This document shows positions 1 to 15,220 of a stretch of DNA of 64,000 bases, piece after piece (the first letter of the stretch is position 1; each line of letters starts with the position of its first letter). Both the position numbers and the translations under genes were made by a program. The notes beneath the pieces were generated by a model that ran no database searches, was not told the origin of the DNA, and saw only the letters and a program-made list of their open reading frames with translations. Origin of the DNA: Rarobacter faecitabidus (GTDB taxonomy: Bacteria > Actinomycetota > Actinomycetes > Actinomycetales > Cellulomonadaceae). Location of the stretch: contig NZ_VFOS01000001.1 of NCBI RefSeq assembly GCF_006716265.1, positions 1,612,001-1,676,000 of the forward strand, read 5' to 3'.

Positions 1-1
1 C

Positions 2-1381
2 ATCGGCGGACAGCAGGTCACGAACCTGCGGCTGTCGGGCGATGTGCTCACCAAGCTGTTCACCGGCGACATCACCATGTGGAACGATCCCGCCATCGCG
101 GCGGACAACCCCAACCTGTCGCTGCCGGCGCGCAAGGTCGTGCCGGTGGTCCGCTCCGACGGCTCCGGCTCGACCGCACAGTTCACGACGTGGATGGCGT
201 CCGAGCATCAGTCGCTGTGGGACAACTACTGCAAGGCGGCGGGACGATCCACGCCGTGCGGCGTCACCTCCAACTACCCCACGGTCGCGGGCAAGGGCTT
301 CGTCGCGCAGCCCAATTCGCAGGGCGTCGCGGGCTACGTCGCGCAGCGAGCGAACGAGGGCACCATCACCTACGTCGAGTACTCTTACGCGCTGAAAACC
401 GGATACCCGGTCGCCAAGGTGCTCAACCACGCCGGCTACTACGTCGAGCCGACCGCCTCGAACGTCGCCGTCGGGCTGTTGTCCGCCAAAATCAACACCG
501 ACAAGAACTCGCCTAGCTACCTCACCCAGGAGCTCACCGGGGTCTTTCGCAGCGACGACAAGCGGACGTATCCCCTGTCCTCGTACAGCTACCTGATCGT
601 CCCGACCGGTACCCAATCGGGGTTCACGACGGCCAAGGGCAAGACGCTCGGTGCATTCTCCTACTACTTCCTGTGCGAGGGCCAGCAGCAGGCCGAGGTG
701 CTCGGTTACTCGCCGCTGCCCATCAACCTCGTCAAGGCGGGACTAGAACAGGTGCGGGCGATTCCCGGAGTCGCGGCGCAATCCATCGACCTGAAGGGAT
801 GCAACAACCCCACCTTCTCCCCCGACGGGACGAACACGCTAGCCAAGAACGCTCCGATGCCAGACAACTGCGACAAGAAGGGTGTCGAGCAGTGCACCCA
901 GGGCACCGGCGGTGCGAAGAAGACGAAGACCGCAGTCACCAAGACGTCCAGCGGCACCACCAAGGGTGGGACCACAGGTTCCGGGACGACGGGTTCGACT
1001 GGCGGTGGGACGTCGACAGAATCGGGCGGTGGTACGGACGGTGGCGGCGCCGACACGGCCACGGATGGAGCCAGCGATGCGGGCACCGACGGCGGCGCGG
1101 CCGATACGGACAACACGGTCACCGGGGGCGGCGACGCGGGAGGCTCCGTCGTGGGGCCCGACTTTGGCGGCGGACCCGTCGTCTGCGAACCGGACACCGG
1201 CGTGTGCATGAATGTGATCGCCGAGCCGGTAACTCTTGAGAACTCAGCGGCGCCGGTGGTTCCGGCTGGGGCGTGGTTGGCCATCGGCGCGGCGGCCCTC
1301 GCTATCGCCGCACCGTCCCTGGTAGCCTTCCTCGCTCGCCGCAGGAACGGCTCGTACTCAGCCAAGGGAGGCGTCCGATGA
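2..1381 (+). CDS. pstS: PstS-family phosphate-binding protein, membrane-anchored (5' end outside window)
   Basis: Phosphate ABC transporter substrate-binding protein; it would capture phosphate outside the membrane for a Pst permease. The start lies before the window; 459 residues are visible. The type-II periplasmic-binding fold is shown by LFTGDITMWNDPAI followed by the phosphate-loop motif SDGSGST (visible residues about 52-58), and the C-terminal lobe by YYFLCEGQQQAEVLGYSPLP. After the domain comes a Thr/Gly/Ser/Asp-rich linker (about residues 305-385), then a hydrophobic segment (about 413-435) and an Arg/Lys tail. It is therefore tethered by a C-terminal helix; there is no LPXTG. The next gene starts inside its stop codon (ATGA overlap), so the two are translationally coupled. 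No pstC or pstA is visible; they may lie upstream. The PstS assignment is firm; actual phosphate specificity is inferred. Confidence 0.85.
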   Translation: MGGQQVTNLRLSGDVLTKLFTGDITMWNDPAIAADNPNLSLPARKVVPVVRSDGSGSTAQFTTWMASEHQSLWDNYCKAAGRSTPCGVTSNYPTVAGKGFVAQPNSQGVAGYVAQRANEGTITYVEYSYALKTGYPVAKVLNHAGYYVEPTASNVAVGLLSAKINTDKNSPSYLTQELTGVFRSDDKRTYPLSSYSYLIVPTGTQSGFTTAKGKTLGAFSYYFLCEGQQQAEVLGYSPLPINLVKAGLEQVRAIPGVAAQSIDLKGCNNPTFSPDGTNTLAKNAPMPDNCDKKGVEQCTQGTGGAKKTKTAVTKTSSGTTKGGTTGSGTTGSTGGGTSTESGGGTDGGGADTATDGASDAGTDGGAADTDNTVTGGGDAGGSVVGPDFGGGPVVCEPDTGVCMNVIAEPVTLENSAAPVVPAGAWLAIGAAALAIAAPSLVAFLARRRNGSYSAKGGVR

Positions 1382-3966
1382 CGGCGCGCTGGGAAAGCGG
1401 GTCGCGCGTGAGCGTCCTGCGCAGGGTCGGCATCGTCCTCGGCGTCGTCGGCCTGTCCGCCAACGCCCTAGGGGGCGTCCTGCTGATCGCATCAACGACC
1501 GCGAATGGTGCGGGCAGCCGGTCGGTCACGGCGAGTGACGATGACTGGGGTGCGACCACCGATTCGGCCGTGACCCAGCAGTGGGCCGATCCCGCTCTCC
1601 TGGGCGAACGTGATCCCGCGAAAGCCTCCTACAACGCGCTTGCGGGCATCACCGTCACGGTGAGCCAGACCAAGGACTTGACCACGCAGGGCATCACCGT
1701 TTCGTGGTCCGGGGCCGCCCCGACCCCGGTGAGCCGATTCTCGGAGTCGTTCTTTCAGGTCATGCAGTGCTGGGGAGACGAAGACGCCGGCCCCTCGCCG
1801 GAGCAGTGCATGTGGGGAACACCGTCGACAGGAATCGCGGCCATGCTCGGGGATCGGGTCGGGGGCCGAACCCTCCGGCTCAATGAAGATCCCGCTCAGC
1901 AGTACTCGGACGAGTACCTCGTCCCCCCGCCTGCGTCCAACCCCTACCTGCGCGCTTACTCCGTCCCGTTCGAAACGGTGGACGGTGACCGCGTCACCGA
2001 CGTCAGTCCCTACTACACCTCGGCCACGACCAACGAGGTCTCCGCGGCGCGAACCAGCGCGGATGGCTCCGGCGTCATCGTCTTCAACACCCTCAACGCC
2101 ATGGACGCGCCGCACCTGGGGTGCGGCGCCGTCACCGGCGGCAAACCGCGCGGGTGCTGGCTCGTCGTCGTACCGCGGGCGGACACCACCGCTGGCGGCA
2201 CGAACGTCGACGACCTGGACGACGGCATGCTGAACGGATCCCCACTGACGGCTACCAACTGGGCGGACCGCATGGTGTTCGACCTGTCCTTCCAGGCAGT
2301 GGGAACCAACTGCCCCCTCGGCAATGCCGAGCGGCGTCTCGTCGGGCATGAGCTGTTCTCCGAGGCAATGACCTCGTGGCAGTCGAACCTGTGCGGATCG
2401 GGCACCACCTACGGCTGGTCGCAGATCGGCGACGAGGAAGCCCGCACTCAGCTCCTCTCCCCGATCGACGGCGCCGCCCGCCTGGCCGTGATATCCGATC
2501 CCGTGTCGAAGGAGAAGGCGACGGGAAACGTGCTGCGCTACGCGCCAATAGCGCGCAGCGCGATCGTGTTCGGCTACAACATTGAGCGCGATCTCAAGCA
2601 GAGCGCCACGCACAGGGAACTCGGCGGCACCCCTGTGTCCGACCTGACTCTCAACGCGCGACTGATCGCCAAACTCCTGACGCAGTCGTATCGGGCCGAT
2701 GTCCCGGGGGGCGGTACGACCGCCCCGATCACGTCGAACCCTTACTCGATCGTCACCGATCCGGAGTTCGTGGAGCTCAATCCGGAGTTCTCCGATTTCA
2801 TGGCCGCGACGGCACCCGAGGGCCTGCTCGTGTCCCTGGGCTCGTCCGACGCGAATGCGCAGGTGTGGCAGTGGCTCCAGTCGGACCCGTACGCCCGCGC
2901 GTTCCTCTCGGGCGAGGACGACGGTCACGGCATGAAGATCAATCCCGCCTATCTGACCCTCGATCTGGCGAACACACCGACGGATTCCTTCCCCAAGGCC
3001 GACCTGACGACCTATCGCGCCTCCAGCATCGTGCCCGAGCCCGGCTTCGGCACGCTCGACCTGCGCCCCTACATGACCGATATGCTCGATGCCGCGCAGC
3101 GGGCCCAGCGCGGTGAATCGGGTTCGAAGATCGTCTGGGATCAGTTCCGTCAGCCGTCGTCGTTCGTTGCCTCGGGCGCGCAACTTCCTGGACACCGCTT
3201 CCAGCTCGCGCTCACCGACCGTACCTCCGCCCACCGCTTCGGCTTGCGCACGGCGTCGCTCGTGAACGAGGCAGGGCAGAAGGTGGCGGCAAGCGAGTCC
3301 GCGGTCACGAAGGGGCTGGATTCCTTCGTAGCTGCGGCTGCAGACGAGACCGTCCGGGTGTACGACCCGACGCAGCGCACGCTAGGCGCGTATCCCCTGG
3401 CCACTATGAGCTACGCGGCCGTGAACGTGTGCCGCGCCAGTACCGCCGAACTGAAGGACTATTCGCGTTTCCTCACCTATGCGGCGGGCGCAGGACAGGC
3501 CCGTGGTGCCGCCAAGGGGCAGTTGCCGCTTGGTTACCTTCCCCTCACCGCCGCCGACAAGAACTCACTGACCACGCTGTCCGCTCTGCTGACCGATTCG
3601 GCCGGGATAAAGAAACTCTGCCCCGTGACGGCGGAAAAGCCCAAGGACGACAAGAACGTCAAGAAGGACGACACCAAGAAGGACGAGCGGGAGAAACCGG
3701 CACCTCCGACCGCGCCGGCCCCTTCGGCCTCTACACCGACCCCTGCGGTCGAGACTCCCGTGGCGGAACCCAGCGAGGATACCGCGCCCCCGCCCGCCGA
3801 GCCGGCACCCGTAGCGGTGGAGACGGCCGCCGCCGAACCCGTGTTGACCGCAGCCGTGTCCACCCGAGGGTGGCGGACCGGAGCCATCGGCGCGATGTCG
3901 CTGGGGCTGCCGTGCTCCATTCTCGGCCCGCTGCTGGTACGCCGGGCCCGAGGTTTGCCTTCCTGA
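1378..3966 (+). CDS. large exported, C-terminally anchored PstS-like protein
   Basis: An 862-residue surface protein. The start is the ATG overlapping the pstS stop (ATGA), with gggagg about 7 bases upstream; an earlier in-frame ATG at 1273 lies inside pstS and lacks this context. There is an N-terminal signal/anchor helix (about residues 15-38). The body resembles a substrate-binding fold with large insertions: RYAPIARSAIVFGYNI, then DLTLNARLIAKLLTQSY, matches the PstS pattern of a conserved hydrophobic strand followed by a helix. Near the C-terminus YAAGAGQARGAAKGQLPLGY matches the last PstS helix and its G-Y-x-P-L motif. A Lys-rich then Pro/Ala/Glu/Thr-rich linker (about 740-830) leads to a final hydrophobic helix and RRARGLPS. 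The canonical S-D-G-S-G-S-T loop is not evident, so phosphate binding is not assured. It may be an accessory surface receptor. Confidence 0.7.
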   Translation: MTARWESGSRVSVLRRVGIVLGVVGLSANALGGVLLIASTTANGAGSRSVTASDDDWGATTDSAVTQQWADPALLGERDPAKASYNALAGITVTVSQTKDLTTQGITVSWSGAAPTPVSRFSESFFQVMQCWGDEDAGPSPEQCMWGTPSTGIAAMLGDRVGGRTLRLNEDPAQQYSDEYLVPPPASNPYLRAYSVPFETVDGDRVTDVSPYYTSATTNEVSAARTSADGSGVIVFNTLNAMDAPHLGCGAVTGGKPRGCWLVVVPRADTTAGGTNVDDLDDGMLNGSPLTATNWADRMVFDLSFQAVGTNCPLGNAERRLVGHELFSEAMTSWQSNLCGSGTTYGWSQIGDEEARTQLLSPIDGAARLAVISDPVSKEKATGNVLRYAPIARSAIVFGYNIERDLKQSATHRELGGTPVSDLTLNARLIAKLLTQSYRADVPGGGTTAPITSNPYSIVTDPEFVELNPEFSDFMAATAPEGLLVSLGSSDANAQVWQWLQSDPYARAFLSGEDDGHGMKINPAYLTLDLANTPTDSFPKADLTTYRASSIVPEPGFGTLDLRPYMTDMLDAAQRAQRGESGSKIVWDQFRQPSSFVASGAQLPGHRFQLALTDRTSAHRFGLRTASLVNEAGQKVAASESAVTKGLDSFVAAAADETVRVYDPTQRTLGAYPLATMSYAAVNVCRASTAELKDYSRFLTYAAGAGQARGAAKGQLPLGYLPLTAADKNSLTTLSALLTDSAGIKKLCPVTAEKPKDDKNVKKDDTKKDEREKPAPPTAPAPSASTPTPAVETPVAEPSEDTAPPPAEPAPVAVETAAAEPVLTAAVSTRGWRTGAIGAMSLGLPCSILGPLLVRRARGLPS

Positions 3967-3990
3967 TGCCTGAAATTCGCTTTTCGGACG

Positions 3991-4018
3991 CCTGACTGCG
4001 ACCTCGATGTCGCTCAGG
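3991..4018 (+). terminator. hairpin between the two PstS-like genes (attenuator candidate)
   Basis: An imperfect inverted repeat: cctga (3991-3995) pairs with tcagg (4014-4018) and gcgac (3998-4002) with gtcgc (4009-4013), with a two-base bulge and a 6-base loop. No U-run follows, so it is more likely a processing or attenuation hairpin than a full terminator. Confidence 0.35.
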
Positions 4019-4086
4019 ACTGCGTAGATGATCACGTCAATCGAAATGACACACCTCATACTCATCAAACGAGAGGAACTCCCTCG

Positions 4087-6108
4087 ATGATTGCCAAGAA
4101 GACGGCCCACGTGGCCGCAGGCATCGGTGCTGGCGCACTCCTGTTCGCCGCTGCTGCGCTTCCCGTCCACGCTGACCCCGCTGGGGGCGCGTTCGGGACC
4201 CTCGTCGGCCTCGGATCCGACACCACCCAGGACGTGCTTAACGGGATCGCCAGTGCGATTCCGGGCAACCTCGTCGCGTCCTACGACGCGACCGGGTCGG
4301 GAACCGTCGTCACCCGCGCCGGCGGAACCGCGATTCCCCGCGCCAACGGCTCCGGGGCGGGCGTGAACCTTCTGCGCGTAGCCATCGGGCAGACCGGTTC
4401 CGCCTCCGTATCGACGTTCAGCAGCGGTACCGTCTCGGTCGAGACCGCGGCCGTGGCGGGGCAGATCGACTTCGCGCGGTCCTCCTCCGGCGCCGGTAGC
4501 AACGTCGTCGCGGGCGGCGTGCTGACATACGTGCCGTTCGCGGTTGATGCCGTGACGTACGCGGTGTCCCCGACCTCAGTCCTGCCGAAGGATCTGACCA
4601 AGGACCAGCTCATCTCGATCTACAAGGGCGCGATCGACCGAGTTGCCTACAAGACCGGCGAAGCCAGCCAGCTCCTCGATAAGACCGACAGCGTACCCGC
4701 CGGCTACACGTCCGTGGGTATCACCACCTACATCCCGCAGGCCGGGTCCGGCACGCGGTCGTACTGGCTGGGCCAGGTCGACATCAGCGAGGCACAGATC
4801 TCGAACAACACCTTCCCGAACCTGAAGGCCACGGACCTCGGCGGCGCTCCAGTGCAGGAGCACAAGGGCGCAGCGCTCGTCACCGGCAACGCGGAGCAGC
4901 AGAAGGCGACGATCGTGCCCTTCTCGATCGCTCAGTGGATCTCGCAGGCGAACGGGAAGGTCACCGACCACCGGGCGAACGCGCAGCTCGGCGGCGTGAC
5001 GGTAGCCGGCACGCTACAGACACCGACCATCGGGAGCGGGACGAGCTACGCCCTCAACCCCAACTTCAAGGCGTACAACCGGACCGTGTACAACATCGTC
5101 CCCTCAAAGTACGCTGACGACCCGAACTCCGTCATCCGCGCCACCTTCGTCGGATCGAACTCGGCCGTCTGCCAGCAGACTGCGGTCATCCAGTCCTTCG
5201 GATTCGGCACCACCACGGACTGCGGCGACACGACGATCCGCGCGTACGCCCCCTCCGAGGCCACCATCGCCGCCACGATCCCCGCCTCCGCGCAGGTCGG
5301 CAAGGCCAGCACGCTCAGTGCCAAGGTGACCTCGTTCGGAAACGGCGGCGGCACGCTCACGTTCAAGAACGGCTCGACCGTTCTCGCGAGCACCACGATC
5401 GCCAAGGGGCAGGACACGGCCTCCGCGCAGTGGACGCCAGCGGCGTCCGGCGGCATGGACATCACCACCGAGTTCGTCCCGAACCTCGCCGGAGTCGGCG
5501 CGGCGGTTTCCCCTGCATCGCCGATCACCGTGAGCGCGGCGAGCGTCCCCGCTCCCGCCGCGACCTCGATCGCTCTGACGGTGAGCAAGGCGCCGACCGC
5601 CGGAAAGACCGTCACGGTCACCGCGTCGATCACCAAGCCTTCCGTCGCGGGAACCGTCACGTTCTTCGATGGCGCCAAGGCACTCGGCAACCCCGTCACC
5701 GTCGCGGCCAGCGCCAAGACGGCCAGCACGACGTTCAAGGCGAGCAAGCTGTCGTACTCGATTCGCGCGGTGTTCACCCCGGCGACGAGCGCCGCCATCG
5801 CATCGAACGCGGCGACCACGGTCAAGGTCGCCAAGGCCAAGGCGGCCGTCAAGGTCGGCAAGGTCAAGGCGGGCAAGCGTAGCGCTACGGTCGCCGTTAC
5901 CGTCAAGGTCAGTGGCGTCAAGGCCGCCGGCAAGATCACTGCGAAGGTCGGCAAGAAAAAGGTCGGCACGGGAACCGTTAAGAACGGCAAGGCCACCCTC
6001 AAGCTCAAGAAGCTCAAGGCCGGCAAGAACAAGGTGACGTTCACCTACGGCGGCGCAGTGCTCGTCGCGAAGGCGAGCTCGAGCAAGTCCATCACCGCCA
6101 AGAAGTAG
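4087..6108 (+). CDS. secreted PstS-like substrate-binding protein with Ig-like repeats and Lys-rich tail
   Basis: 673 residues; gagagga lies about 9 bases before the ATG. A signal peptide ends near residue 30 (LPVHADP). Residues about 35-385 form a PstS-like binding domain: GLGSDTTQDVLNGI at its start, TYVPFAVDAVTYAVSP for the conserved strand, KDQLISIYKGAI for the permease-contact region, and the ligand loop QAGSGTR (219-225). Cys362 and Cys379 could form a disulfide. From about 388 there are two or more bacterial Ig-like (Big_3-type) repeats, and the last 100 residues are very rich in Lys and Val. There is no membrane anchor or LPXTG, so surface retention probably uses the basic tail. It sits between the two anchored PstS-like genes and pstB, followed by a strong hairpin at 6153-6192. 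Ligand identity is inferred from the neighbours. Confidence 0.75.
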   Translation: MIAKKTAHVAAGIGAGALLFAAAALPVHADPAGGAFGTLVGLGSDTTQDVLNGIASAIPGNLVASYDATGSGTVVTRAGGTAIPRANGSGAGVNLLRVAIGQTGSASVSTFSSGTVSVETAAVAGQIDFARSSSGAGSNVVAGGVLTYVPFAVDAVTYAVSPTSVLPKDLTKDQLISIYKGAIDRVAYKTGEASQLLDKTDSVPAGYTSVGITTYIPQAGSGTRSYWLGQVDISEAQISNNTFPNLKATDLGGAPVQEHKGAALVTGNAEQQKATIVPFSIAQWISQANGKVTDHRANAQLGGVTVAGTLQTPTIGSGTSYALNPNFKAYNRTVYNIVPSKYADDPNSVIRATFVGSNSAVCQQTAVIQSFGFGTTTDCGDTTIRAYAPSEATIAATIPASAQVGKASTLSAKVTSFGNGGGTLTFKNGSTVLASTTIAKGQDTASAQWTPAASGGMDITTEFVPNLAGVGAAVSPASPITVSAASVPAPAATSIALTVSKAPTAGKTVTVTASITKPSVAGTVTFFDGAKALGNPVTVAASAKTASTTFKASKLSYSIRAVFTPATSAAIASNAATTVKVAKAKAAVKVGKVKAGKRSATVAVTVKVSGVKAAGKITAKVGKKKVGTGTVKNGKATLKLKKLKAGKNKVTFTYGGAVLVAKASSSKSITAKK

Positions 6109-6152
6109 CGCCTCACGAGGCGCTCCGATCTCGCGCCTCGTCACTCGCTGCC

Positions 6153-6192
6153 CCGCGGTAGTGCGGCACCACTCGGTGTCGCACTACCGCGG
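6153..6192 (+). terminator. strong intrinsic-terminator-like hairpin
   Basis: A 13-bp perfect inverted repeat (6153-6165 with 6180-6192), extended inward by a further 5 bp including one G-U pair, around a 4-base loop. It lies 45 bases after the stop of the Ig-tailed PstS-like gene and about 50 before the sortase-like gene. It would partly separate the binding-protein genes from the downstream pair. Confidence 0.6.
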
Positions 6193-6242
6193 CACCGTTC
6201 CCGCCCCCGTCACTTTTTCCCGCAGAACGAGAGAACGTCCAC

Positions 6243-7253
6243 GTGACCATCACTGAGCAGCCACCCGCGGTCCTGGCGGCATCTCCCACCCCGGAACCCG
6301 TCGCGTCGCATGCCGACGCGCCGTCCGCGCGCTACGACGCGCCCCGTCAGGCCGAACCGCGAGAGCGTCGCGCCGCCTTGACGGCCGCGATGCCGCAATT
6401 CGATGGCGAGGACCGCACGCGCATCCTCGGGTTCGTGCTGCAGACGCTCGGACTGCTTCTGCTCAGCGTTGTCGTGCAGGTACTGCTCTTCTCGCCCCTT
6501 CAGCACCACCGGGCCCAGCACATCGCCTACAACGACCTGCGCTATGCGCTGGCCAACGGCACCAGCCCAGTCGGCCAGCTCACCACCTCGGATCGCCTGA
6601 TCACGCCCGGTACCCCGATCGGGGTGATCCACATCCCCAAACTCGGCCTGGACGAGGTATTCCTCTCCGGCACCACCTCGGACATCCTGCAGTCCGGCCC
6701 TGGGCACCGTCGAGACACCGTCCTGCCAGGTCAGCTCGGCGCGAGCGTCGTCATGGGCCGGCAGGCCACCTTCGGCGGACCGTTCCGCAAAATCGGAACT
6801 CTCGCGATCGGGGACGAGATCACCGTCACCACTGGGCAGGGCACGGCGATCTACACCATCGCGGGCTTCCGACGGGCGGGCGACCCGCTCCCCGCTTCGC
6901 TCGGCGCGGGCCGAGGCCGTCTCACGCTCGTGACCGCATCGGGCACGCCGTACCTACCGACCGGAGTGCTGCGAGTCGACGCGGACCTCACGTCCGAGGC
7001 GTTTCCCACTCCCCGTTCGGTGATCTCGACCGCCGAACTCAGTGACGATGAGCAGGCCTTCGCGTCCGATCAGGCCGCGTGGCCGTGGGTCATCATCTGG
7101 CTGGCGGTCTGGGCCGGGGTCGTCGCCGTCGTCATCTGGCTGCGGAACTGGTGGGGGCGCGCTCAGGCTTATCTGGTGGGGGCGCCAGTCTTCGTCCTCA
7201 TCAGCTACCTGCTGACGCAATCGCTCTTCGCCGTGCTGCCCAATCTGATCTGA
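6243..7253 (+). CDS. membrane protein with class E-like sortase fold, catalytic His and Cys missing
   Basis: 336 residues, GTG start at 6243 after agaacgagag. The layout is a cytoplasmic Pro/Ala-rich N-terminus, one membrane helix (about 62-84), a sortase domain (about 115-250), and two C-terminal helices (about 283-301 and 308-330). The domain follows actinobacterial class E sortases closely: [13 protein letters not shown], then [15 protein letters not shown], then [13 protein letters not shown], then [13 protein letters not shown] and VLRVDADL. In active sortases the G-H pair before the (T/A)-T-(Y/F)-G-x-P-F motif carries the catalytic His, and T-L-T-T-C carries the Cys. Here these positions are Arg173 and Ala232, confirmed at the nucleotide level. 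Transpeptidation is therefore not expected. It may be a scaffold or binding protein for the neighbouring surface PstS-like proteins. Fold assignment is confident; role is unknown. Confidence 0.75.
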
Positions 7254-7318
7254 GCCGCGGCACCGAATGTCCCCCTCCAGTTCACCTTCACGTCAACAAG
7301 ATATGGAAATGTGAGCCC

Positions 7319-8308
7319 GTGACTTCGTCGACGCTTTCCGCCACCGATTCCGCCCAGCCGCAGCATGCGCCGGCCCGCGGTGCCCGGCCGCATGTACCGA
7401 GCCCCGTCGAATCCGCGCCCCAGCGTGCCACGCTCCCGCAGAACGCAGCTCAGGACTCGTCCTCAACAGCCCAGGAAGAGGCCGTATTCCCCCGGGTCAC
7501 ACCAGAGGGTTCCAGGCCCGCCAAGGAGAGTAACGCCGGAGAACTCGGCGCCGAGTCGATCTCGGCGTGGTTCGGCACCCATCAGGTCCTCGATCGCGTA
7601 TCGCTGAGCATGCCCAAGGGCAAGGTCACGGCCCTGATCGGCCCGTCGGGCTGTGGTAAGTCGACGTTCCTGCGCATCCTCAACCGTATGCACGAGCTCG
7701 TGCCGAGCGCCGCGCTCGCCGGGGCCGTGCTGCTCGACGGCCAGGACATCTACGACCCGGCACTGCGCGTCACGCAGGCGAGGCGCGACATCGGCATGGT
7801 CTTCCAGAAACCGAACCCGTTTCCCGCGATGTCCATCCAGGACAACGTGATAGCCGGGCTCGCGCTGACCGGAACCAAGCGCAGCAAGGACGAGAAGGAG
7901 GAACTAGTCGAGACCTCGCTGCGCCGCGCCGGACTCTGGAACGAGGTCAAGGATCGCCTGCGCCAGCCAGGCGGCGGGCTATCGGGTGGGCAGCAGCAGC
8001 GGTTGTGCATTGCGCGCTCGCTTGCGATTCGCCCGCGGGTTCTTTTGATGGACGAGCCATGCTCCGCACTCGACCCCACGTCGACGCGGCGCATCGAGGA
8101 GACCATCACGGAGCTGACCGAGGACGTCACCGTGGTGATCGTCACGCACAACATGCAGCAGGCCGCCCGTGTGTCGGATCAGTGCGCTTTCTTCCTCGCC
8201 GAGGCGGGAACGCCGGGCGTTATCGTCGAGTGGGGCGACACCGACGCCATGTTCAACTCGCCGCAGGACTCGCGGACCAACGACTACGTCAACGGCCGCT
8301 TCGGCTGA
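7319..8308 (+). CDS. pstB: phosphate ABC transporter ATP-binding protein PstB with N-terminal extension
   Basis: ATPase that would drive phosphate import. The core has Walker A GPSGCGKS (residues 108-115), the PstB-typical FQKPNPFP, the signature LSGGQQQR, Walker B VLLMDEP followed by CSALDP, and the switch [15 protein letters not shown]. The C-terminus ends [10 protein letters not shown], as in PstB. I chose the GTG at 7319 (VTSSTL) because it is the first in-frame start after the preceding gene's stop; its ribosome site is weak (ggaaatg). This gives 329 residues against about 250-260 usual, because about 75 disordered Pro/Ala/Gln/Ser residues precede the core. A start further in cannot be excluded. 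It ends 3 bases from a convergent gene. Confidence 0.88.
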
Positions 8309-8311
8309 GTC

Positions 8312-10495
8312 TCAGCGGATCTTGACCGTGAGCGTCCTGGTCGACTTCAGGACGGTACCGCGTCCGCGATACGTAATCGTGTACTTGCCGGTGCCCTTGG
8401 CCTGCTTGGCCAAGGTGATGCTGGCCTTGCCCTTCTTGAGGACGACGATCTTCAGAAGCTTCTTGCCGCGCGAGACCGTTACGTAGCCCTTTGCGGGCTT
8501 CTTCTTGGCCGTGACCTTCACCGCGAAGAAGACCTTACGCTTCGCCCCCTTGGCCTTGACCGTCAGTTTCGATGGCGTGCCGCCCTTTGCCTTGGAACCC
8601 TCCTGCGAATCCCACTGACCATTCAGGTTGAGATCGCAGTCATTCCCCTTGACGCAGAATCCGGCGGCTCGCATCTTGTTGTCGAGGTTGCTGTCCGGCT
8701 TGACGCGCCCCTTCCTCACGCCCAGGTAATCCGCCGGGAGCGTGTCGAAGAACGGTCCCCCGACGGCTACATCCGTCTTGAAAGCCAGGAGCAGGGACTT
8801 GTCAGATCCGATGGACATAGCGACGCCGATCGCGCCGCGATCCAGGTACTTGCCACCGGCCTTCGCCTTGGTTGCCGTCTTAGGGCGAGCGACGATCGTG
8901 AGTTGCCGGGTCGCATTCGAGGTCAGCGTGCCCGCCGGAAGTGTGCAGCGGACGCCGTTGCTGCTGTCCGCGTAGCTCTTGCCCGCGACGCAGCTCGCCC
9001 CGGGCAGGCTGGCCGATACGATCTTCGCTCCGCGCGCCGCACTCACGAAGATCACTGCCGCGAGCGGAAGCGTGTCTGCGCCCTTGTTGTACACCGGGAC
9101 GCGCCACGTCGTCGTCCCGTTCGCGCCGATGACCAGATCGGCGGTGGGCTTGTCCTGCACGCTGGGAATGCCGAATCCGACTGAGGTGCGGGAGATGACC
9201 CACGACCAGCGCATCGAGAAGACGCGGTCGCCCGTCGCCGAGGGCACATAACTCCCCGATTCCGTGACGCGCCCGCCGAACGTCACTTGAAATCCGGTAA
9301 CGTTGCCAGTCAACTTCTCCAAGCTCGGGCCGTTGTAGCTGCCGACCTTCACCTTGACCGACTCGCCGGGTGAGATCGTCGTTGGGATGTACAGCCTACC
9401 GTCGCCTTCACCCGTGCCCATGCAGTCCTGCTCGACCAGTACTACCTGTGGCGTGTCCGGATCATCGAAGACGCACGTCACGTCCCCGATCCCGAGCCAC
9501 GGCTGATCAAGCGGTCGGTCCGTCATCGTGGCTACGAAGGACGGATTGACGATCGCGGTTGCGCTCGTGTTCGTCAGCGTGAAGATGCGCTCCATCTCCG
9601 TGCCGTAGCCGGGGTTGTGCGTCTCGTTGACGCTCGACGCCACCGGATGGCCAGCACCATCGGTCACCGTGATCGCCGGTTCGGCCTGGTTACGCAGCTC
9701 GCCGCTTCTCGGCTCGAAGCCGAGTCCCGCGTCACACGCGAGCATGCCGGCGGTTTCGGACGAGGGGGCCGGAGCCCCGGACCATCGCGCAAAAACGTTC
9801 GTCCAGATCGGACTCACGTTCGATGCGCCGACGGACACGTAGCCCGTAGAGACCGCTACACCGAAGTCGGTCGGGTTGGGCGACAGGATGTTCTTGCAGT
9901 GCCCAACGCTGTGCAACCATCCATCGACGACCGATCTCGCGGTTGTCTGGCCCGCCGCGATGTTCTCCGCCACGAAGGACCAGTTGTACCCGGCCGCGGC
10001 GACGCGATCCGGCGGCGTGGGCAGCGAGCCTGCGCCGGTCTCGAGATGGTCGAAGACGTGCGTGCCCGCCATCCAGGCATTGTGCACCCGCGCGGCCTCG
10101 TCCAGCATCGCAAAGGGGGTGAGGTCCGGCAGGTCCCACGCCAGGCGCTCATTGTTCAGCAGGCATCGGACCGCACTCAACGCGTCGTCTTTGTCCTGCT
10201 CCGAGGAACTGGCGGTGATTTTCAGCGTGGTGTTGTAGCAGGCAACCTCCGACGTGACCCGGGAACCGGCCGTGATCCCGGGCTCGATGGCCGAAGTCCA
10301 TGCGTCTGCGAAGCGAGTAGCGGCCGTGGCCGGGGTTATCGAAATGGCCGAGTACGCCACGGCAACGACAACGGCGAGTACCACAGCCGTGCTGACCGCG
10401 TGGTTCGCCGGGCGGCGCTGTTTCCCCGCCGCTGGTTCGCGGAAGCGCGCGGCAAAGTGGCGCAGCGACTGGCCCTGGGTTCGCTCCGACGACAT
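8312..10495 (-). CDS. secreted CAP/SCP-domain protein with Lys-rich Ig-like tail
   Basis: 727 residues with a hydrophobic export signal at about 33-58 (ending PATAAT). Residues about 108-230 are a CAP (SCP/PR1) domain: CLLNNERLAWDLPDLTP, MLDEAARVHNAWMAGTHVFDH, VAENIAAG and GWLHSVGHCKNIL give the four family motifs with His150, Glu177 and His199. The middle region (about 240-560) has beta-rich repeats about uncovered 'fatty' or Ig-like folds that I do not recognise. A short segment near 640 contains DLNLNGQWDSQEG, a calcium-type Asp/Asn loop of dockerin/EF-hand character. The last 90 residues are Lys-rich and Ig-like, like those of the PstS-like protein at 4087 and the HtaA proteins. Bacterial CAP proteins have varied or unknown roles, so no function is assigned. 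Confidence 0.75.
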   Translation of the reverse strand: MSSERTQGQSLRHFAARFREPAAGKQRRPANHAVSTAVVLAVVVAVAYSAISITPATAATRFADAWTSAIEPGITAGSRVTSEVACYNTTLKITASSSEQDKDDALSAVRCLLNNERLAWDLPDLTPFAMLDEAARVHNAWMAGTHVFDHLETGAGSLPTPPDRVAAAGYNWSFVAENIAAGQTTARSVVDGWLHSVGHCKNILSPNPTDFGVAVSTGYVSVGASNVSPIWTNVFARWSGAPAPSSETAGMLACDAGLGFEPRSGELRNQAEPAITVTDGAGHPVASSVNETHNPGYGTEMERIFTLTNTSATAIVNPSFVATMTDRPLDQPWLGIGDVTCVFDDPDTPQVVLVEQDCMGTGEGDGRLYIPTTISPGESVKVKVGSYNGPSLEKLTGNVTGFQVTFGGRVTESGSYVPSATGDRVFSMRWSWVISRTSVGFGIPSVQDKPTADLVIGANGTTTWRVPVYNKGADTLPLAAVIFVSAARGAKIVSASLPGASCVAGKSYADSSNGVRCTLPAGTLTSNATRQLTIVARPKTATKAKAGGKYLDRGAIGVAMSIGSDKSLLLAFKTDVAVGGPFFDTLPADYLGVRKGRVKPDSNLDNKMRAAGFCVKGNDCDLNLNGQWDSQEGSKAKGGTPSKLTVKAKGAKRKVFFAVKVTAKKKPAKGYVTVSRGKKLLKIVVLKKGKASITLAKQAKGTGKYTITYRGRGTVLKSTRTLTVKIR

Positions 10496-10745: not shown

Positions 10746-12053
10746 CTATTCGATCGGAGAGGCCTGCGCTGCGGCACCCCGGCTCGCGTCGGCGATGGCG
10801 CGCTGCGAAGCGATCACTGCATCCTCGATCTTGCTCTCGCCTGCCTCAAGCGCGCGCAGATTGCGCGCGCGCAGCGCCCTTCCCGCCTTGTCGGCCTGCA
10901 CGATGGAAGCGCACTGAGACTTCACGGAATCGATGACCGCCCAGATTGTCTCCTCCGTGATGATGGGCGCCTGTGCCGCATTGGCCACGGCCTCGATCGA
11001 CGATGCCGCCTCACTGAACGCACCCTGGATGAGCTTGTTGGTGCCGTCCTGCACGGCCACGCCCAGCTCTGCCCCCTCCTTCGCGAAGGCCGCCTGCTGC
11101 CATAGCGCGAGCGACTGCCGGGCTGACGGCAGACCCATCGTCCGGAAGGCCGCGAGGCGACGACGGAGCGCGAACGTGGTGACGACGAGGTTGCGTGTGG
11201 CGGGTGCGTGCGCGAAGCCGAGGAAGAACTGCGAACGCCAGTCGGACCAGGTCTTCTCAGTCTCGGAGAGCACGAAGGAGAGGTTCGCGTGGATCTCACG
11301 CAACTCACTGGTCGCGATCGTCTCGCCGTTGTACTCGACCGAATCTGCCCCCGCGGCCTCCGCGGCGCGCAGGGTGGCATCGGCAGCGTCGAAGTCCGCG
11401 CGCAGCACCTCGATAACCTGCTCGAGCGCTGCGAGCACCGCCACCACGTCATCCATGTGGGCAAGGGTCTGCTTGTGCAGCAGTTGCCCGCGCGCGATGT
11501 TGTCGGCCAGTGCCGTTTCCATCTCCTGCAGCTTTACCTCGGCGAGATCGATCTTCGCGACGAGGGGCTTGGACTCGCGCACCATCGTCTTGAGCGTGTA
11601 TTTGCCCTTCTTGAACCAGCTCTTGATCGACTCGACTGCGCTCTCCAATTTGACGGAGCGCCACTTCTTCTCGAAGCCGTCCATCTCCCGGAGCATGTCG
11701 TTGACGATCACGTCTGCCTCGGGCACTTTGATATCGCGCTGCGCCTCCAGCAACTGAGTTGAGGCATCGTTCATCTTGCGCATGATCGGGGCGCCAAAGC
11801 TGACGATCTGGTTCACGTCGGCAACGAACTTCTTCGCGAGACCCGGTGCGCCCTTCTCGAGATCGGCGCGCTGTTTCTCGGTGAGCAGGCTGCGGAACTT
11901 GAACGCCGCTTCGGCGGGGCGCGATACGTCCACATCGGTACCGGCCACGTCCGCGATCGCGGTCTCTAGCGGACTCCCCTGCACCTCGGCGCTCTGAGTA
12001 TCGGCGGGCTCCATCAGTGTCGTGAAATCCACCGCTATGGTTTCCGTGGACAT
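10746..12053 (-). CDS. telA: TelA-family protein (toxic anion resistance)
   Basis: 435 residues, cytoplasmic, mostly helical. The family is recognised from KKFVADVNQIVSFGAPIMRK near the start, then the central ESIKSWFKKGKYTLKTMVRE and LLHKQTLAHMDDVVAVL, and TMGLPSARQSLALWQQAAF with a C-terminal helical bundle. TelA proteins are linked to tellurite and envelope-stress resistance, but their biochemistry is not settled. The ribosome site aaggagg lies 6 bases before the ATG at 12053. It is the last gene of a three-gene operon with the membrane coiled-coil protein (64-base gap) and the VWA lipoprotein. In Firmicutes TelA is commonly paired with an XpaC-like protein, and that pairing appears to recur here. 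The identification is firm; the substrate is not. Confidence 0.88.
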   Translation of the reverse strand: MSTETIAVDFTTLMEPADTQSAEVQGSPLETAIADVAGTDVDVSRPAEAAFKFRSLLTEKQRADLEKGAPGLAKKFVADVNQIVSFGAPIMRKMNDASTQLLEAQRDIKVPEADVIVNDMLREMDGFEKKWRSVKLESAVESIKSWFKKGKYTLKTMVRESKPLVAKIDLAEVKLQEMETALADNIARGQLLHKQTLAHMDDVVAVLAALEQVIEVLRADFDAADATLRAAEAAGADSVEYNGETIATSELREIHANLSFVLSETEKTWSDWRSQFFLGFAHAPATRNLVVTTFALRRRLAAFRTMGLPSARQSLALWQQAAFAKEGAELGVAVQDGTNKLIQGAFSEAASSIEAVANAAQAPIITEETIWAVIDSVKSQCASIVQADKAGRALRARNLRALEAGESKIEDAVIASQRAIADASRGAAAQASPIE

Positions 12054-12116
12054 CGCTTTCCTCCTTGGTAAGTGGGCCTTGCTTGCCGGTCGACGTTGCT
12101 TGATTTTCCCAGCGGG

Positions 12117-13100
12117 TCAGTTCGTATCGCGATCGTTGTAGACGTCCGAGAGTTTGGCTTCGTCGACGTTCTTGATGAGCGAATCGAGCGCCACCTGAAA
12201 CTCGAGGTCGCGCGATTCGTTGACCTGCCTGATGTTCTCCACCGCCTGCCGGTCGACGGAGCCCACCGCGCGCTGCACCTCTGTCAGGCGCGCGTCGGGG
12301 TTGCTCCAGTATTGCGGATTGGCCCGGACGTCGCCGTAGTAATCGTCATCCAGCGCCTTGAGCAGCTTTCCCAGCGTGTCCTTGTACTGCGACTGGAGCA
12401 GGCGGATCTGCTGGTCGGTGCCGCGCCTGCGTACTCGCACGAAGAGCTCCGCGACGTGGCCCTGCAGACCCGCCAGCAGCGGGCCGAGGTCCGGCAGTGC
12501 GGTGGCACGGTCCCCGAGCCGTTTGATCGAATCCTGCACGAACTCGCCGTCCTCGCCGTCGAGTGCCTCGCTCAGCTCCTTGTCCAGCCGGCGCGCGGAG
12601 ATTCGCCGGCCCTCGGTCCTGTTCCGCTTCCGCCTGAGTACACCGGCCACGAAGCCAGCCGCAGCACCGGCGAGCACGACGACGCCGATTATCCCGAACA
12701 GGATCCCACCGGCTGATGAGCCATCATCGGCGGCGTTGGACGGCTGCCCGCGATCGAGCGTCGATGCCACCGCGGCGACCGCCATTCCGCCGTCCGCCTG
12801 ACCCTGGGAGTACAGCGAAGCGGTGATGGCATCGGCGTCCTGGCCCGAGTCGACGACGAAGCGGTCCGTCGCCCGGTCCTCGATGACGATGACGGTGTCG
12901 TCCCCCGTGGCCTTGCGGACGCCGCTCGCTATGGTGTTCGTGGGGATGCTCTGCGCGGCATCCGGCTGCGGGATCACGATCACCCGCACCCCGGACGGGA
13001 GAACCCCCTGCAATTCGGTGGGGTTCGCAATCGAGGCGCCGTCGTACAGGCACACCGGCTGGTCACCGCACGCCTGAACGATCTGGTCTACCTCGGACAC
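12117..13100 (-). CDS. single-pass membrane protein with coiled-coil C-terminus, XpaC-like
   Basis: 327 residues. Residues 1-120 form a small alpha/beta domain, probably outside the membrane, with Cys11 and Cys17 and strands such as GVRVIVIPQPDA and DDTVIVIED; the pattern recalls TPM-like domains of actinobacterial membrane proteins. A transmembrane helix spans about 131-155, followed by RRKRNR. The C-terminal half is charged and helical (ELFVRVRRRGTDQQIRLLQ, DTLGKLLKALDDDYYG) and ends in a region resembling XpaC-type TelA partners. The gene lies between the VWA lipoprotein and telA with short gaps, so a joint envelope role is likely. The domain assignments are from pattern only, so confidence in function is low. 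Confidence 0.5.
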   Translation of the reverse strand: MSEVDQIVQACGDQPVCLYDGASIANPTELQGVLPSGVRVIVIPQPDAAQSIPTNTIASGVRKATGDDTVIVIEDRATDRFVVDSGQDADAITASLYSQGQADGGMAVAAVASTLDRGQPSNAADDGSSAGGILFGIIGVVVLAGAAAGFVAGVLRRKRNRTEGRRISARRLDKELSEALDGEDGEFVQDSIKRLGDRATALPDLGPLLAGLQGHVAELFVRVRRRGTDQQIRLLQSQYKDTLGKLLKALDDDYYGDVRANPQYWSNPDARLTEVQRAVGSVDRQAVENIRQVNESRDLEFQVALDSLIKNVDEAKLSDVYNDRDTN

Positions 13101-13150
13101 CCGTGTCTCCTCGAATTCGCGTAGAACCTATAGCCGGCAGAAGCCGACTG

Positions 13151-14974
13151 CTAGAAATTATTCATGACCGACTGGAACGTCTCGGTGATCTTCGTCGGAT
13201 CGGTCGCGTCGAAGACTTGACCGCCGGAAGCACGTGCCAGATTCTCGAGGGATTCGACATCCGCGGACGACGAGTAGGCGATGGCGAAGATGCGCACCGA
13301 TTTGTCGTTGCCGCCTTCCTTCTGGTCCGCGTTGATCTTCTGGATCAGCGAGTCGAGCTGGATGCGCGAGTCCGTGTCCTCACCGTCGGAGAGAACCACG
13401 ATCGCATTGATGCGACCCGTCTCAGCATGTTGCTTCATGTAGTCGTACGCGGTCGCGATCGCGTCGTAGAGCGGCGTGCCACCGCGCTGGGCGTTGGCCA
13501 GATCCTGAATGTCAGAGCGCATAGCCTCTTTGTCGCCGCCGAGAACGCTGAACGGCCGGACGACGGCGATTCCCTCGGCTTGCGTGCCGTCGATCTCCGA
13601 GGTCAGGCCCGTGGTGAAGGCCCACACCCCGATCTCGTCCGTGGAACGAACCTCGCCGAGAGTGGTGGTGGAACCCGCTATCGCACCGTCGAGACGCGTC
13701 TTGCCGCCGTCGATGACCTCGTCCATGGAGCCGGAGACGTCGATGAGCTGCAGGATCGCTGAGGGCTTGCGGATCTGCGTCCACTGGTCGATGGCCGCCG
13801 AGACGACCTCGGGTGCCGGTTGCGGCAGCGTCGTCTTCGGCTGCGCGGGGTCGATTCCAACAATGCCGTTCAGAGTCGTGCTCACATCGACGCTGGCATC
13901 GAGTGGCCGGAAGCCGTACTCGGGGAGTACCTGCTGGGCATCTTTCGTGTGCAGGAACTCGACGAATGCAGTGGCCGCAGTCTTCTGCTCGGGCGTCACC
14001 CAGTCCGCGTTCAGCACGACCGCAGGGTTGTCGCTCCACATCGAGCCCTCGCTCGGGTAGATGGCCACCAGCTTCTCATCGGGCGGTGTGAGCGTCTCTC
14101 CGGGTTGCACCGTGTGCGAGTCGGGGTTGCCGATGTTGTAGTTGTAGAGCGAGGTCTCCTCCAGCGTGATCGCGCTGACGTATGAGGAGCCGCCGCCCGT
14201 CGTCTTGTCGGCGAGGTTCTGCAGCACCTTGCCGGTGGTGTCTCCGTAGTGAATCGCGCCCGATTCGAAAACGCGGGAGAACTCCTCGGCCGCGCCGACG
14301 TCCGCGGTGGTGAGGTCCTGCGTCTTGCCCGAGGCCGCGTACGCCTGCATCAGCAGCGTCGAGAGCCCAGTGGTCGAGCTGTTGGGGTTGGTCTTGGCGA
14401 TCTTGAACGATCCCCACAGCGACTTGCCCACGGAACCCCAGCCGTCCGGATTCTCGATGAGTTCGTGGATCTGGGCGATGCCGATGTCCTTGGCGGGATA
14501 TCCGAGTGCCTTCGCCATGGATTCGGGCATGCCGAACACGACCGGGGTCTTGGCGAAGCTCTCGGCTCCCGCGACGACCTTCTCGCCGGCGATGGAGGCC
14601 ACTCGTTCGGTCCACACCGTCGATGCGGGTGACCACACCGAAGGCGCGGTGTCGTTTCCGAGCGCCCACTCCGTCGTCGAGTCGGAGAGGTACTTGGCGG
14701 CCTTTCCCGACGCAACGTTCACGGGATACACCGTCGCGCATTCGCTCAGACTTGAGTACTCGGGAGACTTCTTGAAGAGCTCACCGAGATCCTCCATCAG
14801 GTTTACTTTCTCCGAGGAGGTTGCCACGATAACCGGCGTGCAGCCATCGTCCGCAACGATGGTATCGGTATCCGGGGTATCGTTTTCGCCCGAGCAACCA
14901 GCGAGCGTGGTCGCCACAACGCCCAATGCGACCGCCGCTGCCATGACCCTAAAGCGGAATGCTCCGTTCGACAC
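13151..14974 (-). CDS. lipoprotein with substrate-binding and von Willebrand A domains
   Basis: 607 residues from a GTG at 14974, chosen because aaagga sits 9 bases upstream and it gives a compact lipoprotein signal; an ATG 13 codons earlier is also open. The lipobox LAGC places the lipid-modified Cys at 27. Residues about 35-390 resemble a type-II extracellular solute-binding protein (PVNVASGKAAKYL, FAKTPVVFGMPESMAKAL, YNIGNPDSHT). Residues 407-607 are a VWA domain with a complete metal-binding site: DVSGS (412-416), the Thr in GGTPLYDA and the Asp in LSDGEDTDS. Fused PBP-VWA lipoproteins are found in many actinobacteria without a defined ligand. It is first in the operon with the membrane coiled-coil protein and TelA, suggesting an extracytoplasmic sensor or scaffold for that system. 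Confidence 0.8.
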   Translation of the reverse strand: MSNGAFRFRVMAAAVALGVVATTLAGCSGENDTPDTDTIVADDGCTPVIVATSSEKVNLMEDLGELFKKSPEYSSLSECATVYPVNVASGKAAKYLSDSTTEWALGNDTAPSVWSPASTVWTERVASIAGEKVVAGAESFAKTPVVFGMPESMAKALGYPAKDIGIAQIHELIENPDGWGSVGKSLWGSFKIAKTNPNSSTTGLSTLLMQAYAASGKTQDLTTADVGAAEEFSRVFESGAIHYGDTTGKVLQNLADKTTGGGSSYVSAITLEETSLYNYNIGNPDSHTVQPGETLTPPDEKLVAIYPSEGSMWSDNPAVVLNADWVTPEQKTAATAFVEFLHTKDAQQVLPEYGFRPLDASVDVSTTLNGIVGIDPAQPKTTLPQPAPEVVSAAIDQWTQIRKPSAILQLIDVSGSMDEVIDGGKTRLDGAIAGSTTTLGEVRSTDEIGVWAFTTGLTSEIDGTQAEGIAVVRPFSVLGGDKEAMRSDIQDLANAQRGGTPLYDAIATAYDYMKQHAETGRINAIVVLSDGEDTDSRIQLDSLIQKINADQKEGGNDKSVRIFAIAYSSSADVESLENLARASGGQVFDATDPTKITETFQSVMNNF

Positions 14975-15220
14975 TTTCGGTGGTCCTTTCCCGTTGCGGA
15001 ACCCGGCTTGCATGCAATCACTATCGGCGGGCCGAGCGGTATCACGCCTAGCGGCGAACCCTCACCGGCAGCACCTGCCGGGCATCCGCACCGATGCGTA
15101 TTAGTCTATGTCAAGCCGGGTCGAGCGCGGTCGAATCGCTATTCCGCGCGGTGGCGCCCATCGGCGGAGACGAACCACGAAGATGCGGCTGCGCCTGGGG
15201 GTCCGAGCGGCGAGAGGAAC

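Follow-up and report, generated by a model that had tools for sequence, protein, structure and literature searches.

Class E sortases, represented by SrtE1 of S. coelicolor (5CUW) and SrtE of S. avermitilis (5GO5), have a barrel fold, an N-terminal membrane helix and a framework of GxGH and LPGxxG motifs. The protein analysed here, which we call a pseudosortase, is encoded on the forward strand at 6243..7253 of the window (the whole 64,000-nucleotide stretch of Rarobacter faecitabidus DNA under study) and shares all of these features. It lacks, however, the residues that class E enzymes use for catalysis (His, Cys and Arg) and for substrate recognition (Tyr), is shorter between beta6 and beta7, carries two extra C-terminal helices and lies in a Pst-type gene cluster. 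Sortases of classes C and D (such as sortase D, 4D70) have the same fold, but again differ from the pseudosortase in their catalytic residues, and the best NCBIfam E-values of the pseudosortase family are those to class E. A C-terminal membrane helix is also found in some class C sortases.

Two further systems invite comparison with the gene neighbourhood. The window's cluster resembles canonical PstSCAB in encoding PstB, two permeases of the BPD_transp_1 type and a PstS-type protein, but holds three PstS-like proteins, one of them of about 860 aa, together with the pseudosortase. The WxL, WxL-interacting and LPxTG surface complexes of Firmicutes correspond to the csc clusters; clusters of the window's relatives are like these in containing WxLIP_PGBD, WxL and sorting-signal proteins, but are actinobacterial and combine these proteins with a dead sortase and a transporter of Pst type.

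On balance, we favour the interpretation that the pseudosortase, an integral membrane protein related to class E but catalytically dead, serves as a non-catalytic scaffold of a multi-PstS surface uptake complex. A search of the open-access literature, with preprints and most subscription papers outside its scope, found neither a sortase pseudoenzyme nor its Pst-type cluster described. Among the five sortase candidates of Actinoplanes missouriensis in the consulted part of an mBio study, none is clearly of the pseudosortase family by length and class (PMC13251363). Within the literature searched, the pseudosortases appear to form a previously undescribed branch of the sortase superfamily that lacks catalysis.

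A predicted sortase barrel without catalytic residues

Read as an open reading frame with a GTG start, the gene encodes 336 aa. In the AlphaFold2 model (63-row alignment, mean pLDDT 92.3), an N-terminal segment leads into a long helix at 55-104, which contains the first membrane helix; the sortase barrel follows at about 105-254, then two C-terminal helices at 277-304 and 306-331 and a C-terminus reading LPNLI. The top Foldseek match of the model was sortase D (4d70, E 1.8e-10), and structure comparison gave a Z of 18.6 against 4d70, 17.5 against SrtE1 (5cuw, rmsd 2.3 over 131 residues) and 17.1 against SrtE (5go5, rmsd 2.4 over 129 residues). The initial annotation had held that the fold was kept while sortase chemistry was lost, with structure prediction as one check; the prediction returned a sortase barrel close to SrtE1, and the catalytic columns are indeed replaced. 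Together, model and hydrophobicity suggest a topology of three helices in the membrane with the barrel outside. Two hydrophobic C-terminal segments were found in 80/80 named members by a lenient test, and the same 80 all end in P-N-x(1-2); in two more distant relatives (L133 and L134) the C-terminus is LPST, not PNL.

Pfam recognises the window protein as a sortase (PF04203, 43.4 bits against a cut-off of 26.6) and finds no other domain in it, while the NCBIfam class E model NF033747 scores 71.3 bits, far under its cut-off of 160. HMMER alignments to solved sortases place the catalytic-His motif over Arg173 of the pseudosortase (codon at 6759..6761, +) with identical spacing. By alignment, Ala232 (6936..6938, +) stands at the position of the catalytic Cys and Val242 (6966..6968, +) in the column of the catalytic Arg. 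The ordinary sortases set against the family in a comparison, 21 in all, come from L001 and L002 and from the 20 loci L014-L033 apart from L027, whose frame contains an internal stop. Position 173 is Arg in all 63 family rows of this comparison and His in all 21 ordinary sortases; position 232 is Ala in 56, Gly in five, Thr in one and Ser in one, against Cys in 21/21; and position 242 is Val in 41, Ala in seven, Leu in six, Thr in five and Ile in four, against Arg in 21/21. The loss of His and Cys is therefore as the initial annotation described it, and the catalytic Arg, which it did not mention, is gone as well. It also made no mention of the lost class E substrate Tyr, the shorter beta6/beta7 loop or the two extra C-terminal membrane helices.

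The former substrate site has been remodelled too. In the part of the SrtE1 study consulted, LAXTG recognition is proposed to involve Tyr229 of the beta3/beta4 loop, with the beta6/beta7 loop lining the pocket (PMC5148588). Within codons 152-165 of the pseudosortase (6696..6737, +), position 156, which we match to the column of SrtE1 Tyr229 from its GHY context, is Arg in 62 of the 63 family rows and Ser in the other, against Tyr in 19/21 ordinary sortases. The beta6/beta7 stretch (positions 204-232) is 29 residues long in 60/63 family rows, against 38 in 17/21 ordinary sortases. Among five more distant relatives, position 156 is Arg in one and Ser, Glu, Val and Leu in the other four; with the LPST ends of L133 and L134, this indicates that neither Arg156 nor the PNL end is universal in the family.

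Besides Arg173, the residues His155, Asp158, Gln199 and Arg210 are invariant or nearly so across the 63 members. Residues of this kind could have built a new active site, making the protein a neofunctionalised enzyme, but we consider this quite improbable: the old site has no conserved nucleophile, and Gly154 and His155 are conserved in 21/21 ordinary sortases too and so may be structural.

Extent of the family and selection on it

Searching the window's own genome and those of 98 relatives gave a full-length pseudosortase match of at least 156 bits in ten of these 99, the next match, at 67 bits, being an ordinary sortase. The window's genome (2.8 Mb in seven contigs) has two further sortase matches, at C1:1480602 and C1:333734, both with His, Cys and Arg. 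A single-sequence scan of genome contigs with the window pseudosortase gave no match, while searching one genome per species with the alignment gave 259 relatives; since only the best 80 of these were carried forward, active members could exist among the rest. The genera among the best 80 of the 259 are actinobacterial and include Streptomyces, Micromonospora, Amycolatopsis, Cellulomonas and Microbacterium. Against a plasmid collection the window pseudosortase matched six records, each covering 25-33% of its length, four annotated as class D/E sortase and two without a named feature; a Streptomyces pseudosortase gave no match in plasmid and phage collections at E 1e-10 or 1e-5.

The family alignment comprises 90 rows from 86 distinct loci, four genes having entered twice. 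Position 173 is Arg in 90/90 rows, and position 232 is Ala in 82, Gly in six, Thr in one and Ser in one, never Cys; the initial annotation had read a Gly-Arg pair in place of the GH pair and Ala232 in place of the Cys. When the three catalytic columns are removed, a single branch of the tree (SH-aLRT 99) parts the family from the 21 ordinary sortases, although that tree rests on 130 columns and a quick method, and two ordinary rows have long branches. The search for homologues sharing the His-to-Arg and Cys-to-Ala changes beside pstB, proposed at the outset as a further check, thus found the His-to-Arg change kept, no His or Cys in 86 loci, and PstB on the same strand in all 80 named loci. The pseudosortase is one of a family across Actinomycetota and not a single local protein, and its place in a cluster with Pst genes stands.

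Estimates of dN/dS lay between 0.07 and 0.43 in 15/15 pairs, hand-picked among close relatives, which shows the pseudosortase to be under purifying selection. The loss of all three catalytic residues might be read as a decaying or pseudogenised sortase kept by chance. We give that reading almost no credence, given the wide conservation, the dN/dS values, the invariant new residues and the presence of the large PstS-fold protein S900 (described below) in the same genomes; local decay in particular is ruled out by conservation across 86 loci together with dN/dS.

The five more distant relatives, from a phylum-wide sample, all have Arg at position 173, with Ala at position 232 in three and Ser in L133 and L134. 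Since L134 appears to retain the catalytic Arg, its sequence suggests that His and Cys were lost first and the catalytic Arg later. The more distant pseudosortase at L135:9017-10357 has the motifs AGRRTTYGAPF and TTSNPEY. Its site looks like that of an ordinary class E enzyme in which His and Cys have been exchanged while the catalytic Arg stays, and it is a possible intermediate.

The Pst-type gene neighbourhood

In the window's cluster, two permease genes are followed by S1, S900, S673, the pseudosortase and pstB. The permease genes match BPD_transp_1 at 49.3 and 42.3 bits, and we name them PstC and PstA from their position and this general permease domain. S1 (1..1381, +) begins about 404 bases before the window and encodes a PstS-type protein of 594 aa with a C-terminal hydrophobic anchor (PF12849, 134.5 bits). 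Aligned with solved PstS chains, it places RSDGSGST over RSDGSGTT, keeping the phosphate-binding motif; the truncated part within the window scores 161.8 bits against TIGR00975, under the cut-off of 205. It is not the only PstS-type gene of the genome, a second lying elsewhere at C1:155276-156169 (163.6 bits).

S900 (1378..3966, +), whose ATG overlaps the S1 stop (ATGA), encodes about 860 aa with a PstS fold, a further domain and a C-terminal helix. No Pfam family was matched by the window copy or by any of 33 members. The best Foldseek matches of its AlphaFold2 model (pLDDT 82.8) were PstS proteins (1pc3, E 5.5e-13), with identities of 10-16% in the better rows. S673 (4087..6108, +) has Ig-like repeats, Big_3_5 being its only Pfam match, and no sorting signal; neither Pfam nor the PDB matched it to a binding protein. 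One homologue, at L071:5017-6003, matches PF12849 at 38.9 bits, and another, at L080:7161-8147, matches no Pfam family, so that S673 would be PstS-like only by way of its homologues.

Between S673 and the pseudosortase lies a perfect 18-bp hairpin (6153..6192; z -6.8 for a 141-nt fold). The same gap in two congeners (L049 and L038) also holds long hairpins (z -4.9 and -3.8), of other sequence, and the element is possibly an attenuator or an mRNA-processing element. A promoter scan of 3900-8500 found none. The ATPase gene pstB (7319..8308, +; TIGR00972, 343.8 bits against a cut-off of 343.2) is read here from a GTG at 7319. Convergent with it at 8312-10495 (-) is a gene for a CAP-domain (SCP/PR1-like) protein with a weak Big_3_5 Ig-like match at its end, and 10746-15013 (-) encodes, in a row, a TelA-type protein, a protein that no Pfam family clearly matches and a fusion of solute-binding and von Willebrand A domains. 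Homologues of these last genes come after the Pst-type cluster in the relative G002 (L038).

The association with Pst-type genes is constant, such genes lying beside the pseudosortase in all 85 loci examined. A PstB frame starts within 2.5 kb in 83/85 loci, a count that left out L043, on a short contig; the two loci without one in the 2.5 kb searched (L044 and L045) have PstC, PstA, S1 and S900 upstream. Five phylum-sample genomes other than the window's own carry a pseudosortase, and from these we fetched four loci: L137 and L138 have the usual order PstC-PstA-S1-S900-pseudosortase-PstB, and L135 and L136 have an S900-like gene, PstC, PstA, PstB and S1 around the pseudosortase in a different order.

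S900 (E 1e-6) and the full-length pseudosortase occur in the same 10 of the 99 genomes, and at E 1e-8 for S900 and 1e-25 for the pseudosortase they occur in the same 6 of 198 phylum-sample genomes. Because the genomes are related these are not 15 independent cases, and common inheritance or regulation could account for both the shared operon and the co-occurrence; in one genome (G097) the two genes are on different contigs. Nonetheless, shared clusters and occurrence in the same genomes uphold the link to PstS-like surface proteins drawn in the initial annotation. Instead of being a scaffold, the pseudosortase could be a subunit with a regulatory or signalling function in the Pst system, as its apparently external barrel, the short conserved turn between its last two helices and its position next to pstB would allow; however, Pfam finds the sortase domain alone and no signalling domain, and we hold this to be distinctly unlikely.

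Sorting signals in relatives and the role of the pseudosortase

Another way to view the former substrate site is through the proteins encoded beside it. We screened for sorting signals with a strict test, namely an LAxTG/LPxTG-type motif followed by an uncharged segment and a basic tail. Such signals were present in 37/636 open reading frames ending at most 3.2 kb upstream of the pseudosortase, compared with 0/960 further upstream, 9/1985 downstream and 3/3589 on the reverse strand. Among the 76 loci with at least 3.3 kb of upstream sequence, 34 have a signal-bearing frame within those 3.2 kb, and in 32 of 36 positive loci it ends no more than 350 bases from the pseudosortase start. The statement in the initial annotation that no PstS-like neighbour bears an LPXTG signal therefore holds for the window, while in many relatives a nearby upstream gene does have a sorting signal.

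Many of the relatives' clusters also encode WxL-type proteins. Of 68 proteins scanned (every one of the 35 with a WxLIP label and 33 of the 39 with a WxL label, the latter label being inflated by shared Ig-like domains), 29 matched WxLIP_PGBD and 22 matched WxL (Pfam, E 0.001), with at least one match under Pfam's own cut-off. In locus L071 the genes that separate S900 from the pseudosortase (5017-9991) encode PstS-like, WxL, WxL-interacting-type and LAYTG proteins; in other loci, L069, L074, L094 and L105 among them, a WxL/WxLIP pair comes right behind pstB instead. In the window's cluster we found neither a sorting signal nor a WxL-type protein. Taken together, these gene contents indicate that the cluster type is part of a wider surface assembly, and that the pseudosortase is independent of the presence of a signal.

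The enrichment just upstream raises the possibility that the pseudosortase is a non-catalytic receptor or presenter of LAxTG/LPxTG signals, which would bind a surface protein encoded nearby and pass it to an active sortase; the window's genome does have ordinary sortases elsewhere. Consistent with this, all 23 rows with a signal have Thr at position 231, next to the former Cys site, whereas the 36 rows that lack one include 20 with Thr and 14 with Ser (four rows with scant upstream sequence were left out), although the comparison is confounded by ancestry and residue differences extend to the helices. Against it, the family has lost the catalytic Arg and has another residue in place of the Tyr that would read the signal in SrtE1, and its beta6/beta7 stretch is shorter by about nine residues; moreover, Arg173 is retained in clusters without a signal, the window's included, and Arg156 and Arg157 nearly always are too. 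These comparisons speak against signal binding as the chief function, and we regard the presenter function as unlikely.

Returning to the scaffold interpretation, we infer the scaffolding step as follows. A relative of class E sortases would have been recruited as a permanent component of an ABC uptake system of Pst type, with three helices in the membrane and the barrel outside, where it would hold the PstS-like proteins S1, S900 and S673 near the permease. The rebuilt active-site groove, as read from the alignment, with Arg173 always present and Arg156 and Arg157 present in most members, would let these proteins dock non-covalently, while contact with the permease would be made by the two C-terminal helices. 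A related but doubtful idea is that the former peptide groove binds either an acidic stretch of S900 or the anionic ligand itself, be it phosphate or a wall polymer rich in phosphate, acting as a capture-and-relay element between the surface PstS proteins and the permease; the notion of an Arg-lined anion groove is weakened because Arg156 is missing in four of the more distant relatives.

The significance of these findings is partly practical. Because the window protein passes the Pfam sortase cut-off, there is a risk that proteins of this kind are annotated or studied as enzymes. The analysis further reveals a surface uptake cluster of the multi-PstS kind, with which a PstS-fold protein of about 900 aa co-occurs, and the role of its dead sortase is directly testable in tractable streptomycetes. 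If the capture-and-relay idea were true, a fold otherwise used for wall anchoring would have been turned into a non-enzymatic subunit of an ABC importer.
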